Assembly (NCBI RefSeq): GCF_000428525.1
Contig: NZ_AUAC01000003.1
Span: 372,001 to 436,000 of the forward strand
Direction: 5' to 3'
Length of the DNA stretch: 64,000 nucleotides
DNA from: Hellea balneolensis DSM 19091
GTDB lineage: Bacteria > Pseudomonadota > Alphaproteobacteria > Caulobacterales > Maricaulaceae
The position numbers and the translations under genes are program-made. Below the pieces are notes generated by a model that searched no databases, was not told where the DNA came from, and was given only the letters and a program-made list of their open reading frames with translations. The stretch's first letter is position 1; each line of letters opens with the position of its first letter. Below are positions 13,484-19,526 of the stretch, in pieces.

Positions 13484-14275
13484 TTAGGCCCCGTGGGTTG
13501 CGTTCGCGAGTGTCTTCACGAGAGCCAAGGCTGCCTCCGCTCCATTTTCATGTAGCTCTTTCACAATGGCAGAGCCGACCACAACACCGTCCGCATCTTT
13601 TGCGACTTCGGCTGCGCGCTCTGGCGTCTTGACCCCAAATCCTACGACAACAGGGAGGCCCGAGGCCTTGCGCACTTTCGCGACTTGTTCGGTCACCGAG
13701 CCGGCTTGGCTGAACGCGGCGCCCGTTATGCCTGTCATAGATACGTAATAAACAAAACCTTTGGTACCTTCGACGACGCGGGGCAGGCGGGCTTCATCTG
13801 TGGTGGGGGTCGCAAGGCGGATGAGGGCGAGGTCATGCACCTCAAAGGCGTCGCGTAAGCCTGCATCTTCCTCGGGCGGTAAATCTACAATAATTGCGCC
13901 GTCTATGCCCGCCTCTTTGGCAGCCTTGGCAAAATTGGCATAGCCCATGTGATGCACAGGATTACAATAGCCCATAATGATGAGGGGTGTTGTGTCATTA
14001 TTTTTGCGAAACTCTGTCGCCATCTCAAGGATAGTGGTCAGGGTTGTCCCCGCCGCGAGGCTTCGCAAACCCGCTTCTTCAATGGTTGGGCCATCGGCTG
14101 CAGGATCGGTAAAGGGCATGCCCAGCTCGATAATATCCACGCCATGTGAGGGCAGGGCGTTGAGGACCTGTTGAGACGTCTTACGATCTGGGTCTCCGCC
14201 CATAATATAGGCGACAAAGGCGGCTTGGCCTTTGGCTTTTCGGTTAGTAAATACGGTATCAATGCGGTGCGTCAT
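13484..14275 (-). CDS. trpA: Tryptophan synthase alpha subunit
   Basis: The alpha subunit cleaves indole-3-glycerol phosphate to indole, which is channelled to TrpB. The 263-residue TIM barrel has catalytic Glu in ELGMPF (about 51) and Asp in DPAADGP (about 62), the PNP motif region MGYCNPV, and the phosphate-binding GFGVKTPE and GVVVGSAIV segments. It appears fully functional. Unusually it is not next to trpB; 3.2 kb of other genes intervene, and a broken second trpA 5' end lies at 16.9-17.0 kb. Confidence 0.96.
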   Translation of the reverse strand: MTHRIDTVFTNRKAKGQAAFVAYIMGGDPDRKTSQQVLNALPSHGVDIIELGMPFTDPAADGPTIEEAGLRSLAAGTTLTTILEMATEFRKNNDTTPLIIMGYCNPVHHMGYANFAKAAKEAGIDGAIIVDLPPEEDAGLRDAFEVHDLALIRLATPTTDEARLPRVVEGTKGFVYYVSMTGITGAAFSQAGSVTEQVAKVRKASGLPVVVGFGVKTPERAAEVAKDADGVVVGSAIVKELHENGAEAALALVKTLANATHGA

Positions 14276-14348: not shown

Positions 14349-15608
14349 TTACAGTGCACGCGATTTAGGCGTAAATATCTTTCCGCACGTGTTCTTTGCC
14401 AAAGCCACTCCAGCTCCATCGAATTTAGGCGTCATTGTATTACAGGCATAGATGACTTCAAATTGCGCCATATCGAATTGGGGCGATTTAGCTTTAGCCT
14501 TTACAAATTTAGTCTTTTCAAGTTTAGCCATTTGATATGTCTTAGCTGGACTAACGCTTGCCATTTCCGTTTTGATAAATGTTCTATCAGCTAAGCTCGG
14601 TATAACAGTTTCAATATGGGGAATTACTCTAGCAGCGTCCACGCTGACTGTTTTCACTTCGATGAGCGTTCTGTCGGCCAAACGAGGTATAACGGTTTCG
14701 ATATGTGGAATTTTTCTTCTTATAACATCTGTTGTTACCGATGTAACTGACTGACTGAGGTTCTTCTCTGCTGCCATGACATAATTCTGTCTTTGGACAT
14801 ATTTCACCTCAGATGCCTTTGCGTTCACGACTTTTATAGTCTCGCTTTTAAGGTCTGTTGCCTCCAAGACTTGCACCTTGGCTTCTACAACTCTTACAAC
14901 ATCAGTCTTTGCGGGTGTTTCTTCTCTGATCTCAATATTAGCTGCCGTAACATGGTTTTCAAGGGGCGCGAGTTCAGCATGTTGCGTTACAACAGCTTCT
15001 GGCGCAGCGGGTTTTGTTACGGCAGGTTTTGAGATGACTTGCGCTGTGTCCTGAGCTTTGCCGCCGATAACCAGAGGGTTACTCGGGCGTGCCTGTTCAA
15101 CAGAGTTCTCTTGTGCTGCAGGTAACTGAGTAATGACTTGTCTAGCAGCTCTTTGGTCTAACATGCCTGGCATGGCCCCAGCTCTCATGAGCTGTAGTTC
15201 CATTTTCAAGCGTGATATTTCTAGATCATAGAGTTTGGTACAATCAACGCGTTTTGTCTTTTTCCCTAGGGGAACAGATATACGCCCGTAAAAAGAGACT
15301 GTTTCACGGTCGAAAATGTCATTTGATCCAATCATACCCATATCAAGTTTAGGTCCATTTGACCCAATAGCTGATTGGCACGTAATGCCACTTGGGCCAC
15401 GTATCATGTCTTGGCCTGATATATGAGGCTGTGTCGGTAGATTAAATCCATTCTGATTGTAAGAACTAGATGAATTAGGCAAGATAATAGGCGAACTTAA
15501 ATCATTGATAGGCGAACCTAAATTATTTACTTGGCTCTGTGCACTGCCGACAGCGAGTGCTGAGAGGATTACTGTTCCTGCAATTTGGTAGCAAATACTT
15601 TTCCGCAT
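14349..15608 (-). CDS. Secreted protein with two 29-residue repeats and a C-terminal Cys motif (419 aa)
   Basis: After a signal peptide the protein has an Asn/Ser-rich segment, then ITCQSAIGSNGPKLDMGMIG (about 74-93) and RVDCTKLYDLEISRLKMELQ (about 119-138). A long Ala/Val/Thr/Glu linker follows, then two near-identical units beginning IPHIETVIP (about 303 and 332). The end, from IYACNTMTPKFDGAG through CGKIFTPK, matches the end of the protein encoded just upstream. The 40-bp overlap with that gene implies co-expression. No known family; a surface or pilus-like assembly role is inferred from its company. Confidence 0.75.
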   Translation of the reverse strand: MRKSICYQIAGTVILSALAVGSAQSQVNNLGSPINDLSSPIILPNSSSSYNQNGFNLPTQPHISGQDMIRGPSGITCQSAIGSNGPKLDMGMIGSNDIFDRETVSFYGRISVPLGKKTKRVDCTKLYDLEISRLKMELQLMRAGAMPGMLDQRAARQVITQLPAAQENSVEQARPSNPLVIGGKAQDTAQVISKPAVTKPAAPEAVVTQHAELAPLENHVTAANIEIREETPAKTDVVRVVEAKVQVLEATDLKSETIKVVNAKASEVKYVQRQNYVMAAEKNLSQSVTSVTTDVIRRKIPHIETVIPRLADRTLIEVKTVSVDAARVIPHIETVIPSLADRTFIKTEMASVSPAKTYQMAKLEKTKFVKAKAKSPQFDMAQFEVIYACNTMTPKFDGAGVALAKNTCGKIFTPKSRAL

Positions 15609-16000
15609 ACTTCCCCCTTAAAAGCCGATCCTACGCCGTCGACTTTTGGAATAATTGAATTACAAACATAAACCATGCGTGAGTTTACAGAGCCGTCATT
15701 TTGCTCTGAGAAAGGTACGATGGCTGTTATAACGAGCGTATCGTTGGAGGCTAATTTAACGGCCTTTTTTGATACATAACTTGCTTTTACGGGTTTCCAA
15801 TCAGGCGTGTAGATCGAAATCATATTAACTTGCGGCGTCGCATAAGTGTTTCTGATTTCAAACTGCACCATGAATTTATCACTGAAAGAGACAACCTTCT
15901 GCTTCATAGGTGCCACGCTTTGAGCTTGCGCCGCGAATGTCGCGGCGAGCCCTGTAGCGGTGAAAACACCTATGATGAAATGTCTTATGGCGCCGTGCAT
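15569..16000 (-). CDS. Secreted protein sharing a C-terminal Cys motif with its neighbour (143 aa)
   Basis: A signal peptide (to about residue 27, AQA) is followed by a beta-rich body containing FMVQFEIRNTYATPQVNMIS and DTLVITAIVPF, reminiscent of one immunoglobulin-like domain of fimbrial chaperones, though weakly. The last 33 residues (YVCNSIIPKVDGVG ... CGKVFATK) resemble the end of the 419-aa protein. The start overlaps the upstream gene's stop by 16 bases and the end overlaps the next start by 40 bases. Function is not recognised. Confidence 0.72.
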   Translation of the reverse strand: MHGAIRHFIIGVFTATGLAATFAAQAQSVAPMKQKVVSFSDKFMVQFEIRNTYATPQVNMISIYTPDWKPVKASYVSKKAVKLASNDTLVITAIVPFSEQNDGSVNSRMVYVCNSIIPKVDGVGSAFKGEVCGKVFATKLQEQ

Positions 16001-16467
16001 CTTACGACTGTCACAAGTTCATAAATGCCAGCATCAAATGTGCCTGTAGATTTCGTGGCATTCGCATCTACGGTTGCGACTGTGACGCCTAAGCCTAGAG
16101 GCGTAACGGAATCTCCGCTAACTTCTGATAAGACTGTGTCACCCGCCAGAGTATAGCTTGCGGCAAATGTTGTATTTGTGTCAGCGCTTGCGGGGCCTAC
16201 ATCGAAAGATGTGGGCGCGATAACTTGAATATTTGAATTTATACTATTGGTCGTAACCGTAACGGTTCCGGGAAGGCCCGCTGTCTCCTTGGAGGATAAG
16301 ACCGTCTGATCAATCGACTGGCCAAGGATACCATTTGTACCAATGACGAGGGCGCAGCTGTCTAAAACAACACCTGAAAATCTAACATCTTGGTCAACAG
16401 CAAACGCGGATGGCGCGATCAATGCTGAGCCTAAAGTTACCACCATTATTTTTTTTATATTTTTCAT
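15985..16467 (-). CDS. Secreted pilin-like protein (160 aa)
   Basis: Start ATG at 16467 follows AAGGAAG with five bases of spacing; a longer frame to 16494 is not supported. The signal peptide ends at PSAFA. The mature protein is Thr/Ser/Val-rich and beta-strand-like, with one Cys near the N-terminus (VVLDSCALVIG) and one near the C-terminus (VVRCTAP), a layout seen in fimbrial and spore-coat-U-like subunits. It is the first gene of a three-gene overlapping operon. No usher is encoded nearby. Confidence 0.72.
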   Translation of the reverse strand: MKNIKKIMVVTLGSALIAPSAFAVDQDVRFSGVVLDSCALVIGTNGILGQSIDQTVLSSKETAGLPGTVTVTTNSINSNIQVIAPTSFDVGPASADTNTTFAASYTLAGDTVLSEVSGDSVTPLGLGVTVATVDANATKSTGTFDAGIYELVTVVRCTAP

Positions 16468-16627: not shown

Positions 16628-16651
16628 GAAAAAACCCGCCAAGAGGCGGGT
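16628..16651 (-). terminator. Rho-independent terminator after the entericidin gene
   Basis: Read leftward, a seven-pair stem (ACCCGCC/GGCGGGT) with a four-base loop is followed by a run of six T. It closes the upstream entericidin transcript and separates it from the pilin-like operon. Confidence 0.9.
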
Positions 16652-16695
16652 TCAGTCATTATCAATCAGAGGTAAAGCCTAGCAGATGTAAGAAG

Positions 16696-16839
16696 CTAAT
16701 TTTTCGTGACTTCTTCCGCTTTGTCTCCAGCGCTTTCAAGGTCTTGGCCAACGCCTTCAATCGTATTGCAAGCTGATGCTAGAAGTGTGAGGCCTGTTAC
16801 GGCAAAGATAGCAAGCGTCTTAGCAGGTGAATTTTTCAT
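16696..16839 (-). CDS. Entericidin A/B family lipoprotein
   Basis: This 47-residue lipoprotein has a hydrophobic signal with lipobox (LLASAC) and the entericidin signature NTIEGVGQDLESAGDKAEE. Entericidins are small cell-envelope lipoproteins (toxin/antidote-like pair in enterics; single copies are common in alphaproteobacteria). The start is at 16839 with GGAG upstream; the longer frame to 16956 runs through the trpA relic and is artefactual. It carries its own terminator. Confidence 0.92.
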   Translation of the reverse strand: MKNSPAKTLAIFAVTGLTLLASACNTIEGVGQDLESAGDKAEEVTKN

Positions 16840-16900
16840 GGGTGCTCTCCGTGTTATTATGAAAGAGAAACGACTTAGATTGAATTTGGTTCCCGAGAAA

Positions 16901-17014
16901 TTAGACAGCTTGCGAGGCCGCACGGTCAGGGTCTCCGCCCATGATATAGGCGACAAAGGCAGCTTGGCCCTTAGCTTTACGAGCGGCGAAGGTTTGTGTG
17001 ATGCGTTGGGTCAT
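16901..17014 (-). pseudogene. trpA: trpA 5' fragment (37 codons)
   Basis: This short frame encodes MTQRITQTF ... RKAKGQAAFVAYIMGGDPDR and then stops right after codon 37. It matches the start of the intact TrpA (28 of 37 residues identical by my count; RKAKGQAAFVAYIMGGDPDR is exact), with synonymous DNA differences. The homology ends abruptly at GTC-TAA, where the intact gene continues. It lies at the position expected for trpA after trpB. It cannot encode an enzyme. Confidence 0.92.
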
Positions 17015-17017
17015 GAG

Positions 17018-17506
17018 TTATTCATTACAGTCTAAGTTTTGCTTAGAAATACTAAGTTCAGTTTTTTCAGTTCCAGAAAGAGTTCTAGGGGTAAGAATTA
17101 GCTCTTTGTCACATCCTGTTTCTACAGTTTTACGAAAATGCATGCTTACATAATCAGGTGTTTTTAATGCATCTGCGCTAACAAATTCTTCTATAGGAGG
17201 TTCGAAATTGAACCAGCCTGCCTCGTCAAGAAGTAATCCATAAGCGAGGACTTTCCCTGTTTTTTCTGCATCAACTTTTCCTATCAAGTGTATGCAGAAA
17301 GTGTTTTCATCTAAATCGACTCTTTGACATTTTGCTATAACGTCATTTGTCAGTAGCGGAATCGAGTCCCCGTAAACTTCAAAGTAATCTAGGTGTTTAT
17401 CATGACTTGGCAGGCTTGAACACGCCCCTAGAAAAAATGCCAAACCAAAACCGCCAGCGGTTTTGGCACGTCGTTGTATTCGATTCACAGGATCGAATAC
17501 GGTCAC
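17018..17506 (-). CDS. Lipoprotein of unknown function (162 aa)
   Basis: A signal with lipobox (AFFLGACSS) indicates a lipid-anchored protein. The body is soluble, acidic and contains three further Cys (AKCQRV, TFCIHLI, TGCDKE). The start is a GTG overlapping the trpB stop (GTGA), with GGAGGG seven bases upstream, so it is translated with trpB. No family is recognised. It sits between trpB and the trpA fragment, an unusual place for a lipoprotein. Confidence 0.75.
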
Positions 17507-18735
17507 TTTGTGCCCTCCGTCCCCTCACTAATATGCTCGCCCAGCGCGTCGGCAATCGTGAAGACATCTTTATCGCCGCGGCCGCACATATTCATGATAA
17601 TCAGCCCGTCTTTGCCAAGCTCTTTGGCGAGGTCGACGGTGCGGGGCAGGGCATGGCTAGGCTCTAGCGCGGGGAGGATGCCTTCTAGGCGGGCGCATTC
17701 TTGGAACCAATGCAGAGCTTCGTCATCAGTGGCGCTGACATATTCCGCGCGGCCAATATCGTGCAAATGCGCATGTTCTGGACCGATACCGGGATAGTCG
17801 AGGCCTGCCGAGATGCTATGCGCGTCTTTGATTTGTCCGTCTTCATCTTGCAGGAGGTAAGTGCGGTTCCCGTGGAGCACGCCGGGCGTACCGCCTGTCA
17901 GGCTCGCAGCGTGTAATCCGCTATCCACGCCGCGCCCTGCGGCTTCAACGCCGATAAGCCGCACACTCGTTTCGGGCACAAAGTCATGGAATAGGCCCAT
18001 CGCATTAGACCCGCCGCCAATACAGGCAACGACAGCATCGGGCAGGCGGCCTTCGCGATCTAAAATTTGCGCCTTGGCTTCGCGGCCAATAATGGCTTGG
18101 AAATCACGGACCATAGCGGGGTAAGGATGCGGTCCTGCGACGGTGCCGATACAGTAAAAGGTATCGCCGACATTGGTGACCCAATCGCGCAGGGCTTCAT
18201 TCATCGCATCTTTCAAGGTCGCTGTGCCGCTATGTACGGCACGGACTTCGGCCCCGAGCAGGCGCATCCGAAAGACATTCGGCTTTTGGCGGACAATATC
18301 CGTCGCGCCCATATAGACGATACATTTCAGGCCAAAGCGCGCGGCAACTGTGGCCGTTGCGACGCCGTGCTGTCCCGCGCCTGTCTCAGCGATAATGCGG
18401 CTCTTGCCCATGCGCTTGGCGAGCAGAATTTGGCCCATGCAATTATTGATTTTATGCGCGCCAGTATGGTTGAGCTCATCACGCTTGAAATAAATCTTAG
18501 CCCCATCTGCGAACTCGGTGAGGCGCTCAGCGAAATAAAGTGGAGACGGACGGCCGACATAATGGTTGAAAAAATCATCAAGTTCGGCTTGGAAAGTGGG
18601 GTCAGCCTTAGCCTCCTCATAAGCTTTCTCAAGCTCAAGGATTGGCGGCATCAAAGTCTCGGCGACATAACGCCCGCCAAAATCACCAAAGCGTCCATTC
18701 TCATCAGGAGTCGTAATGTTTTCAGGTTTACCCAT
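17503..18735 (-). CDS. trpB: Tryptophan synthase beta subunit
   Basis: It is PLP-dependent and condenses indole with serine to form tryptophan. The 410-residue protein contains the PLP lysine in HTGAHKINN (about 93), GQHGVATA, the phosphate-binding GGGSNAMG and a C-terminal SGRGD-like NMCGRGDKD. It is four bases downstream of trpF and overlaps a lipoprotein gene at its end. Both substrates would normally come from an adjacent trpA, which is displaced here. Confidence 0.97.
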
Positions 18736-18739
18736 TTCG

Positions 18740-19396
18740 TTATCCTTGGTCGTGAACCGCTTTCATAAAGGCTTGAATTTTCGCCGCATCCTTTACGCCC
18801 GCGCTCGCTTCAAGGCCAGAGCTAACATCGAGGATAGGCGCATTTGTCCTCTGTAAAGCTTCCGCCGCATTGTCGGGGGTGAGGCCGCCCGCAAGCGCCC
18901 ATATTTTCGGGAGGGGCGCGGCGGCCAGAATATTCCAATCAAAGGACAGGCCGTGTCCGCCTCGTGCGGTTTCGACCCCATCGGGACGTGTGGGTGGTTT
19001 AGCGTCATAGAGCAGAAAATCCGCAACCCCCGCATAATGCTCGGCCTGCTTCATATCCTCAGCCGTGGCAATGGCCACGGCTTTAATGATGCGCGTTTTG
19101 GAGAGCCGCGCTATCTCGGCCACGCGGTCGACACTCTCATCGCCATGCAGCTGTATGTAATCAGGCTGCATGTGCGCGGCGATAGCCATGATCAGGGCAT
19201 CATCAGGATTAACCGTCACGGCCACAGTCTTTGCGCTACCATTGGCGGGGCGAGAGAGGACGGCTGCATCAGCCACGGACACCCGCCGCGAAGATTTCGC
19301 TTCAACGATAAACCCAAGGTAAGACGCACCATAGAGGATAGCTGCTTCAACATCTTCGGGCCGTTTCAAGCCGCATATTTTAACTTTGCTATGCAT
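18740..19396 (-). CDS. trpF: Phosphoribosylanthranilate isomerase
   Basis: It performs the Amadori rearrangement in tryptophan synthesis. The 218-residue TIM barrel opens with [13 protein letters not shown] (catalytic Cys) and carries LLYDAK (catalytic Asp) and the phosphate-binding [14 protein letters not shown] and [10 protein letters not shown]. The start at 19396 gives the family length; the frame continues 20 codons upstream without support. It is the first gene of the local trp cluster. Confidence 0.94.
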
Positions 19397-19526
19397 GGGG
19401 TGGGGATAACAGGTTTCGATTTTGAAAAACACCTTAATCCTCGTTGAAATCCGCAAAAATCACCGAGTTTATGAGGGCCAAAAACTATTAAATCCTTGCT
19501 TGTGATAGGATGGCCTATAGTGGCTG

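Follow-up and report, generated by a model that had tools for sequence, protein, structure and literature searches.

To our knowledge, the chaperone and the usher of donor-strand pili have been regarded as inseparable. Domain 2 of the chaperone docks to the usher and, in archaic and alternative chaperones, also carries the carboxylate anchor. The F1-G1 hairpin contacts the pilin in known systems (PMC4654587), and a disulfide linking F1 with G1 characterizes the FGL chaperones and is required for their subunit binding (PMC4133393). We found no description of a pilus system without an usher or with a single-domain chaperone in the open-access literature. Here, we analyzed a 64,000-nucleotide stretch of the Hellea balneolensis DSM 19091 genome (the window), in which 3 overlapping genes, P1, P2, and P3, encode secreted proteins, 2 of which (P1 and P2) have predicted folds related to those of chaperone-usher pili (Table 1).

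Table 1. Coordinates of the features in the window
Feature	Position	Strand	Remarks
trpA, downstream flank	13484..14275	-	homologs in 95/98 family genomes
P3 gene	14349..15608	-	419 aa, secreted; conserved core and variable C-terminal part
P3 extension with internal repeat	14349-15100	-	
P2-type F1-G1 hairpin copy at P3 C-terminus	14364..14456	-	Hellea balneolensis only, among 20 genomes
P3 conserved core	15165..15488	-	2 invariant Cys; 49-80% identity over 10 genomes; seen in 20 genomes
P2 gene	15569..16000	-	143 aa, secreted; predicted single chaperone-domain-1 fold
P2 closing motif (strands F1 and G1 with the connecting loop)	15584..15682	-	invariant Cys113 and Cys132
P1 gene	15985..16467	-	160 aa from ATG, secreted; predicted chaperone-usher pilin fold
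P1 N-terminal extension, V-x-F-x-G-x-V...C	16357..16398	-	resembles pilin donor strand
Probable intrinsic terminator	16629..16652	-	found by eye; absent among the sites listed by the scan
Small entericidin-like lipoprotein gene	16699-16842	-	
Truncated trpA duplicate	16904..17014	-	between trpB and the module
Lipoprotein-like gene	17018-17506	-	162 aa; directly after trpB
trpB, upstream flank	17503..18735	-	
trpF	18740..19456	-	read 19456-18740

Composition, distribution, and location of the gene set

The trio is placed between trpB and trpA, with overlaps of 16 nt (P1/P2) and 40 nt (P2/P3), and the coordinates and overlaps given in the preliminary description were reproduced. All 3 N-termini were signal-peptide-like as judged by eye. 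Searches of Pfam, NCBIfam, and PDB sequences with single proteins and profiles returned chance-level matches only, and no curated family matched P1, P2, or P3, save for a SPOR domain ending 4 P3 relatives.

We identified P1-P2-P3 in a constant order in 20 genomes from 11 genera. Most are Maricaulaceae/Hyphomonadaceae-type bacteria, and they include Litorimonas cladophorae and uncultured Algimonas, Hellea, and Euryhalocaulis. Relatives of P2 in other genera were collected by a family-wide protein search and their surroundings fetched, with the same order every time; other families of the order were reached with a P3-core profile and 1 distant alphaproteobacterial bin with a P1 profile. The P1/P2 overlap was 16 nt in 12 of the 20 loci, P3 started 31-40 nt within P2 in 18, and each gene was present in 1 copy per genome. 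After clustering of all neighbors within 6 kb, P1, P2, and P3 were the only genes common to the 20 neighborhoods, and no further neighbor gene occurred in at least half of the loci. Since these are the sole genes shared by all loci, P1-P2-P3 is, judging by gene content, a self-contained functional unit, and by the same comparison it is an ancient set. The earlier proposal of a distinct secreted 3-gene assembly gains support from 20 genomes sharing just these genes. The distribution of the module is patchy, with 15 carriers among 299 genomes of the order, and its tree, in which the deeper nodes are weak, mostly tracks the host families.

A partial second trpA, covering 37 codons from the 5' end (MTQRITQTFAARKAKGQAAFVAYIMGGDPDRAASQAV, followed by a stop), lies between trpB and the module. 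This truncated copy has 76% amino acid identity to the trpA N-terminus, and at the DNA level it is most like, and 83-84% identical to, trpA of module-free genomes of the same genus. A 32-nt decayed remnant of the trpA start was identified at the same place in Litorimonas cladophorae (L017, 7676-7707). The truncated start looks like a scar of module insertion, and recombination at the start of trpA is the probable route by which the segment came in. Modules adjacent to trpA were found in 4 genomes (Hellea balneolensis, L015, L016, and L017); as these modules form one group in the tree, a single origin of the trp location, within one clade, is most likely. A functional link to tryptophan synthesis was considered and rejected, as 16 of the 20 modules have no adjacent trpA and the trpB-trpA gaps of relatives are either empty or occupied by unrelated small genes.

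Across the family, the cargo of the trpB-trpA gap varies, with different species encoding different small, mostly secreted-looking proteins there (L065, L066, L067, and L070). In Hellea balneolensis, the gap also contains a lipoprotein-like and an entericidin-like gene, each of which has a homolog at the same site in a related genome (L017 and L015). A terminator-like hairpin upstream of P1 would set the genes on the trpB side apart from the promoter region of P1, which argues for a promoter of the trio's own.

Predicted folds of P1 and P2 and the search for ushers

Structure models of P1 and P2 were built with AlphaFold2 from shallow alignments of 10 sequences. For the P1 model (mean pLDDT 84.2), the best Foldseek matches in the PDB were CfaB, FimF, the PapG pilin domain, CsuA/B, and Caf1, with moderate TM-scores of 0.40-0.50, so a chaperone-usher pilin fold is predicted and the first protein's description as pilin-like is borne out at that level. 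The modeled Ig fold is incomplete, with no strand beyond the last F-like strand and the G strand absent. Among 17 members, Cys38, Cys157, and a GxY close to the C-terminus are invariant. The N-terminal extension, in which F30 and G32 are near-invariant and C38 is invariant in these members, reads like a pilin donor extension (FimA TVHFKGEVVNAAC); hhalign against Fim pilins gave a weak match (P 0.022; reversed control 0.65), and in the monomer model the extension is unpaired and has no assigned strand. At the level of the predicted fold, P1 has the character of a pilin-fold subunit with a donor extension and an incomplete Ig fold. Pfam pilin profiles did not match P1, and none of the Fimbrial, spore coat U, and DUF4402 profiles matched the 17 members at E<=1.

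The P2 model (pLDDT 80.5) matched pilus chaperones in all 50 of the PDB matches listed by Foldseek (E 2e-6, probability 1.00, TM 0.60), aligning to domain 1 of PapD/DraB/Caf1M-type proteins. In this model, P2 consists of one domain, folded like domain 1 of these chaperones. Mature P2, of ~116 aa, aligns to this domain only and does not have the 2-domain form of PapD-like chaperones; its alignment is collinear from the mature N-terminus (SPM...) and covers the N-terminal half of 2-domain chaperones. An hhalign probability of 94.7% against archaic chaperones was rejected as proof of a chaperone, having been inflated by signal peptides and falling to 32% once these were removed (E 4.8e-4 against 2-domain chaperones of the same order; reversed control 0.34), so the assignment is mainly fold-based. 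No direct sequence match to Escherichia coli FimC was found, P2 was unmatched by the chaperone profile PF00345 and by Pfam generally, and PF00345 also found nothing in the Hellea balneolensis genome. The statement that a known chaperone is missing therefore stands by Pfam and falls by fold.

What had been described as a closing motif corresponds to the modeled F1 (107-116) and G1 (130-139) strands and their loop. Its cysteine pair, located on F1 and G1 in the predicted structure, is invariant in 20 of 20 genomes. In the G1 strand (EVCGKVFATKL), the positions of the classical bulky hydrophobic donors are taken by small or polar residues.

Neither PF00577 nor a sister-lineage usher used as query found anything in the Hellea balneolensis genome, and PF00577 together with a 3-member order-specific profile detected no usher either there or in 15 further carriers. 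The same 2 profiles identified an archaic-type usher in 4 of the 20 carriers. The absence of an usher, noted earlier for the locus, thus holds genome-wide in Hellea balneolensis and in the 15 others. Two carriers (L062 and L063) have a separate archaic-type chaperone-usher cluster unlinked to the module, in which a 2-domain chaperone directly adjoins the usher. With 16 of 20 carriers lacking a detectable usher, the module is, as far as gene content tells, independent of one. The trio could still supply the subunit and the chaperone to an ordinary chaperone-usher system with its usher encoded elsewhere, since unlinked ushers are possible in principle and 4 carriers encode one; we consider this highly improbable, as 13 of the 16 usher-negative carriers are at least 96% complete, the usher's immediate neighbor in L062 and L063 is a normal 2-domain chaperone, and P2 is without the domain-2 part that docks to ushers.

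The usher count also bears on a reading in which P1-P2-P3 form a fixed heteromeric complex in the periplasm or envelope, P2 being a structural Ig subunit and no fiber being made. Single-copy genes, tight overlaps suggesting near-equal translation, a single-domain P2 with a weak donor strand, and the missing usher in 16 of 20 carriers would all fit such a complex. Against it, P1 has a donor-type N-terminal extension and no G strand, as expected of a polymerizing subunit, and the nearest folds of P2, among the matches listed, were dedicated pilus chaperones throughout. We regard the fixed complex as possible, if somewhat unlikely.

The third protein and the hairpin shared with P2

The P3 core of ~110 residues (YNQxGFNLP...GQD...C...GxIGxND...YGR..VPLGK..KRxDC..LYxLEIxRLKMEL) shows the highest conservation within the module, ends in a helix-like stretch, and had no Pfam or PDB match. 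The C-terminal part is variable, with a SPOR domain at its end, above the Pfam cut-off, in 4 of 20 genomes (L018, L020, L040, and L041); PF05036 was absent from P3 of Hellea balneolensis and 15 others. In the Hellea balneolensis extension, the repeat IPHIETVIPxLADRTxI occurs twice, in this genome only among those examined. SPOR domains bind denuded peptidoglycan and target septal or denuded glycan (PMC6895207). Along with the strong conservation of the core, the 4 SPOR-bearing relatives could suit a P3 that replaces the usher as an outer-membrane or division-site export or anchoring factor and gives rise to a new surface fiber, a modified version of the surface assembly suggested in the preliminary description. 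A core of this size with a helix-like end is, however, too small to form a barrel by itself, and it matched nothing in Pfam or the PDB, which leaves this reading quite improbable.

The tails of the 143-aa and 419-aa proteins do share a sequence, as the preliminary description had claimed: a 31-residue ungapped local alignment with identical Cys-Cys spacing scored 88, whereas 5000 shuffles reached 64 at most (E 6e-5 genome-wide). No third copy was found in the whole genome, and none of the P3 proteins of the other 19 carriers has the hairpin. The tail of P3 is best read as a copy of the P2 tail. The 2 tails have 60% DNA identity, highest at second codon positions (24/33, vs 16/33 at third positions), a pattern that suggests an old copy kept under constraint. 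A P2 profile built without the genome's own P2 weakly found P3 (E 0.0016; rank 2 of 1140 open frames, behind P2), and a profile of the tail only ranked P3 no better than chance frames. The idea of a general sorting or docking signal was therefore dropped on account of this weak match and the absence of the motif from the other 19 P3 proteins; it is a constant part of P2, yet is found on P3 in 1 of 20 genomes. Because the hairpin contacts the pilin in the known systems introduced above, direct contact of P3 with P1 in Hellea balneolensis through the copied hairpin is a fair inference.

Proposed mechanism and comparison with known systems

We propose, at about an even chance, that the trio is a minimal chaperone-pilin module working without an usher, with a periplasmic and possibly wall-bound partner. 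All 3 proteins would reach the periplasm through Sec. P2 would serve P1 as its dedicated partner and insert its G1 strand into the open groove of P1, as in classical donor-strand complementation; the outcome would be a stable complex of P1 with P2 or a short homopolymer that P1 forms by donor-strand exchange. P3 would be the periplasmic partner holding the assembly at the cell wall, and in Hellea balneolensis its hairpin copy may cap or anchor P1 directly. Doubts about this module come from the small residues in the P2 G1 strand, the missing domain 2, the moderate TM-scores of P1, and the presence of SPOR in only 4 of 20 P3 proteins. A donor-strand pathway in which a 1-domain chaperone and a wall-bound base protein, here with its own capping or anchoring hairpin, replace the usher, and the fiber stays periplasmic or takes a new exit route, seems to us rather unlikely. 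A widely conserved chaperone-pilin pair without an usher and with a 1-domain chaperone, if true, would point either to an ancestor of simpler design or to a derived role for the pilin fold in the periplasm, and the 3-gene set is small enough for testing in a laboratory strain.

Among described proteins, the FGL chaperones Caf1M and DraB were among the best fold matches of P2, which shares with them a cysteine pair on F1 and G1, invariant in P2 and placed there by its model; P2 differs in its F1-G1 loop (~13 residues, compared with an average of 24), in a G1 strand without the bulky donor residues, and in the missing domain 2, and the FGL combination of a long loop with 4 bulky donor residues was not found. 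The lack of domain 2 also separates P2 from known pilus chaperones in general. The 2 cysteines of P1 are spaced unlike the A-B pair of classical pilins. As in SPOR-domain envelope proteins, a Pfam SPOR domain forms the C-terminus of 4 P3 relatives, whereas known partners of SPOR proteins show no relation to the conserved P3 core. With the chaperone-usher pili, both archaic (Csu) and classical (type 1, Caf1, and Dr), the trio shares the predicted pilin fold of P1 with its donor-type N-terminal extension and missing G strand, the chaperone domain-1 fold of P2, and the joint location of subunit and chaperone genes. In contrast to these pili, it has no usher, a 1-domain chaperone, a single subunit gene, and no adhesin, and it adds the unrelated conserved protein P3. 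Because an usher and a 2-domain chaperone, 2 defining features, are missing, the trio is not to be filed as a member of the chaperone-usher pathway; it resembles a reduced chaperone-pilin system.
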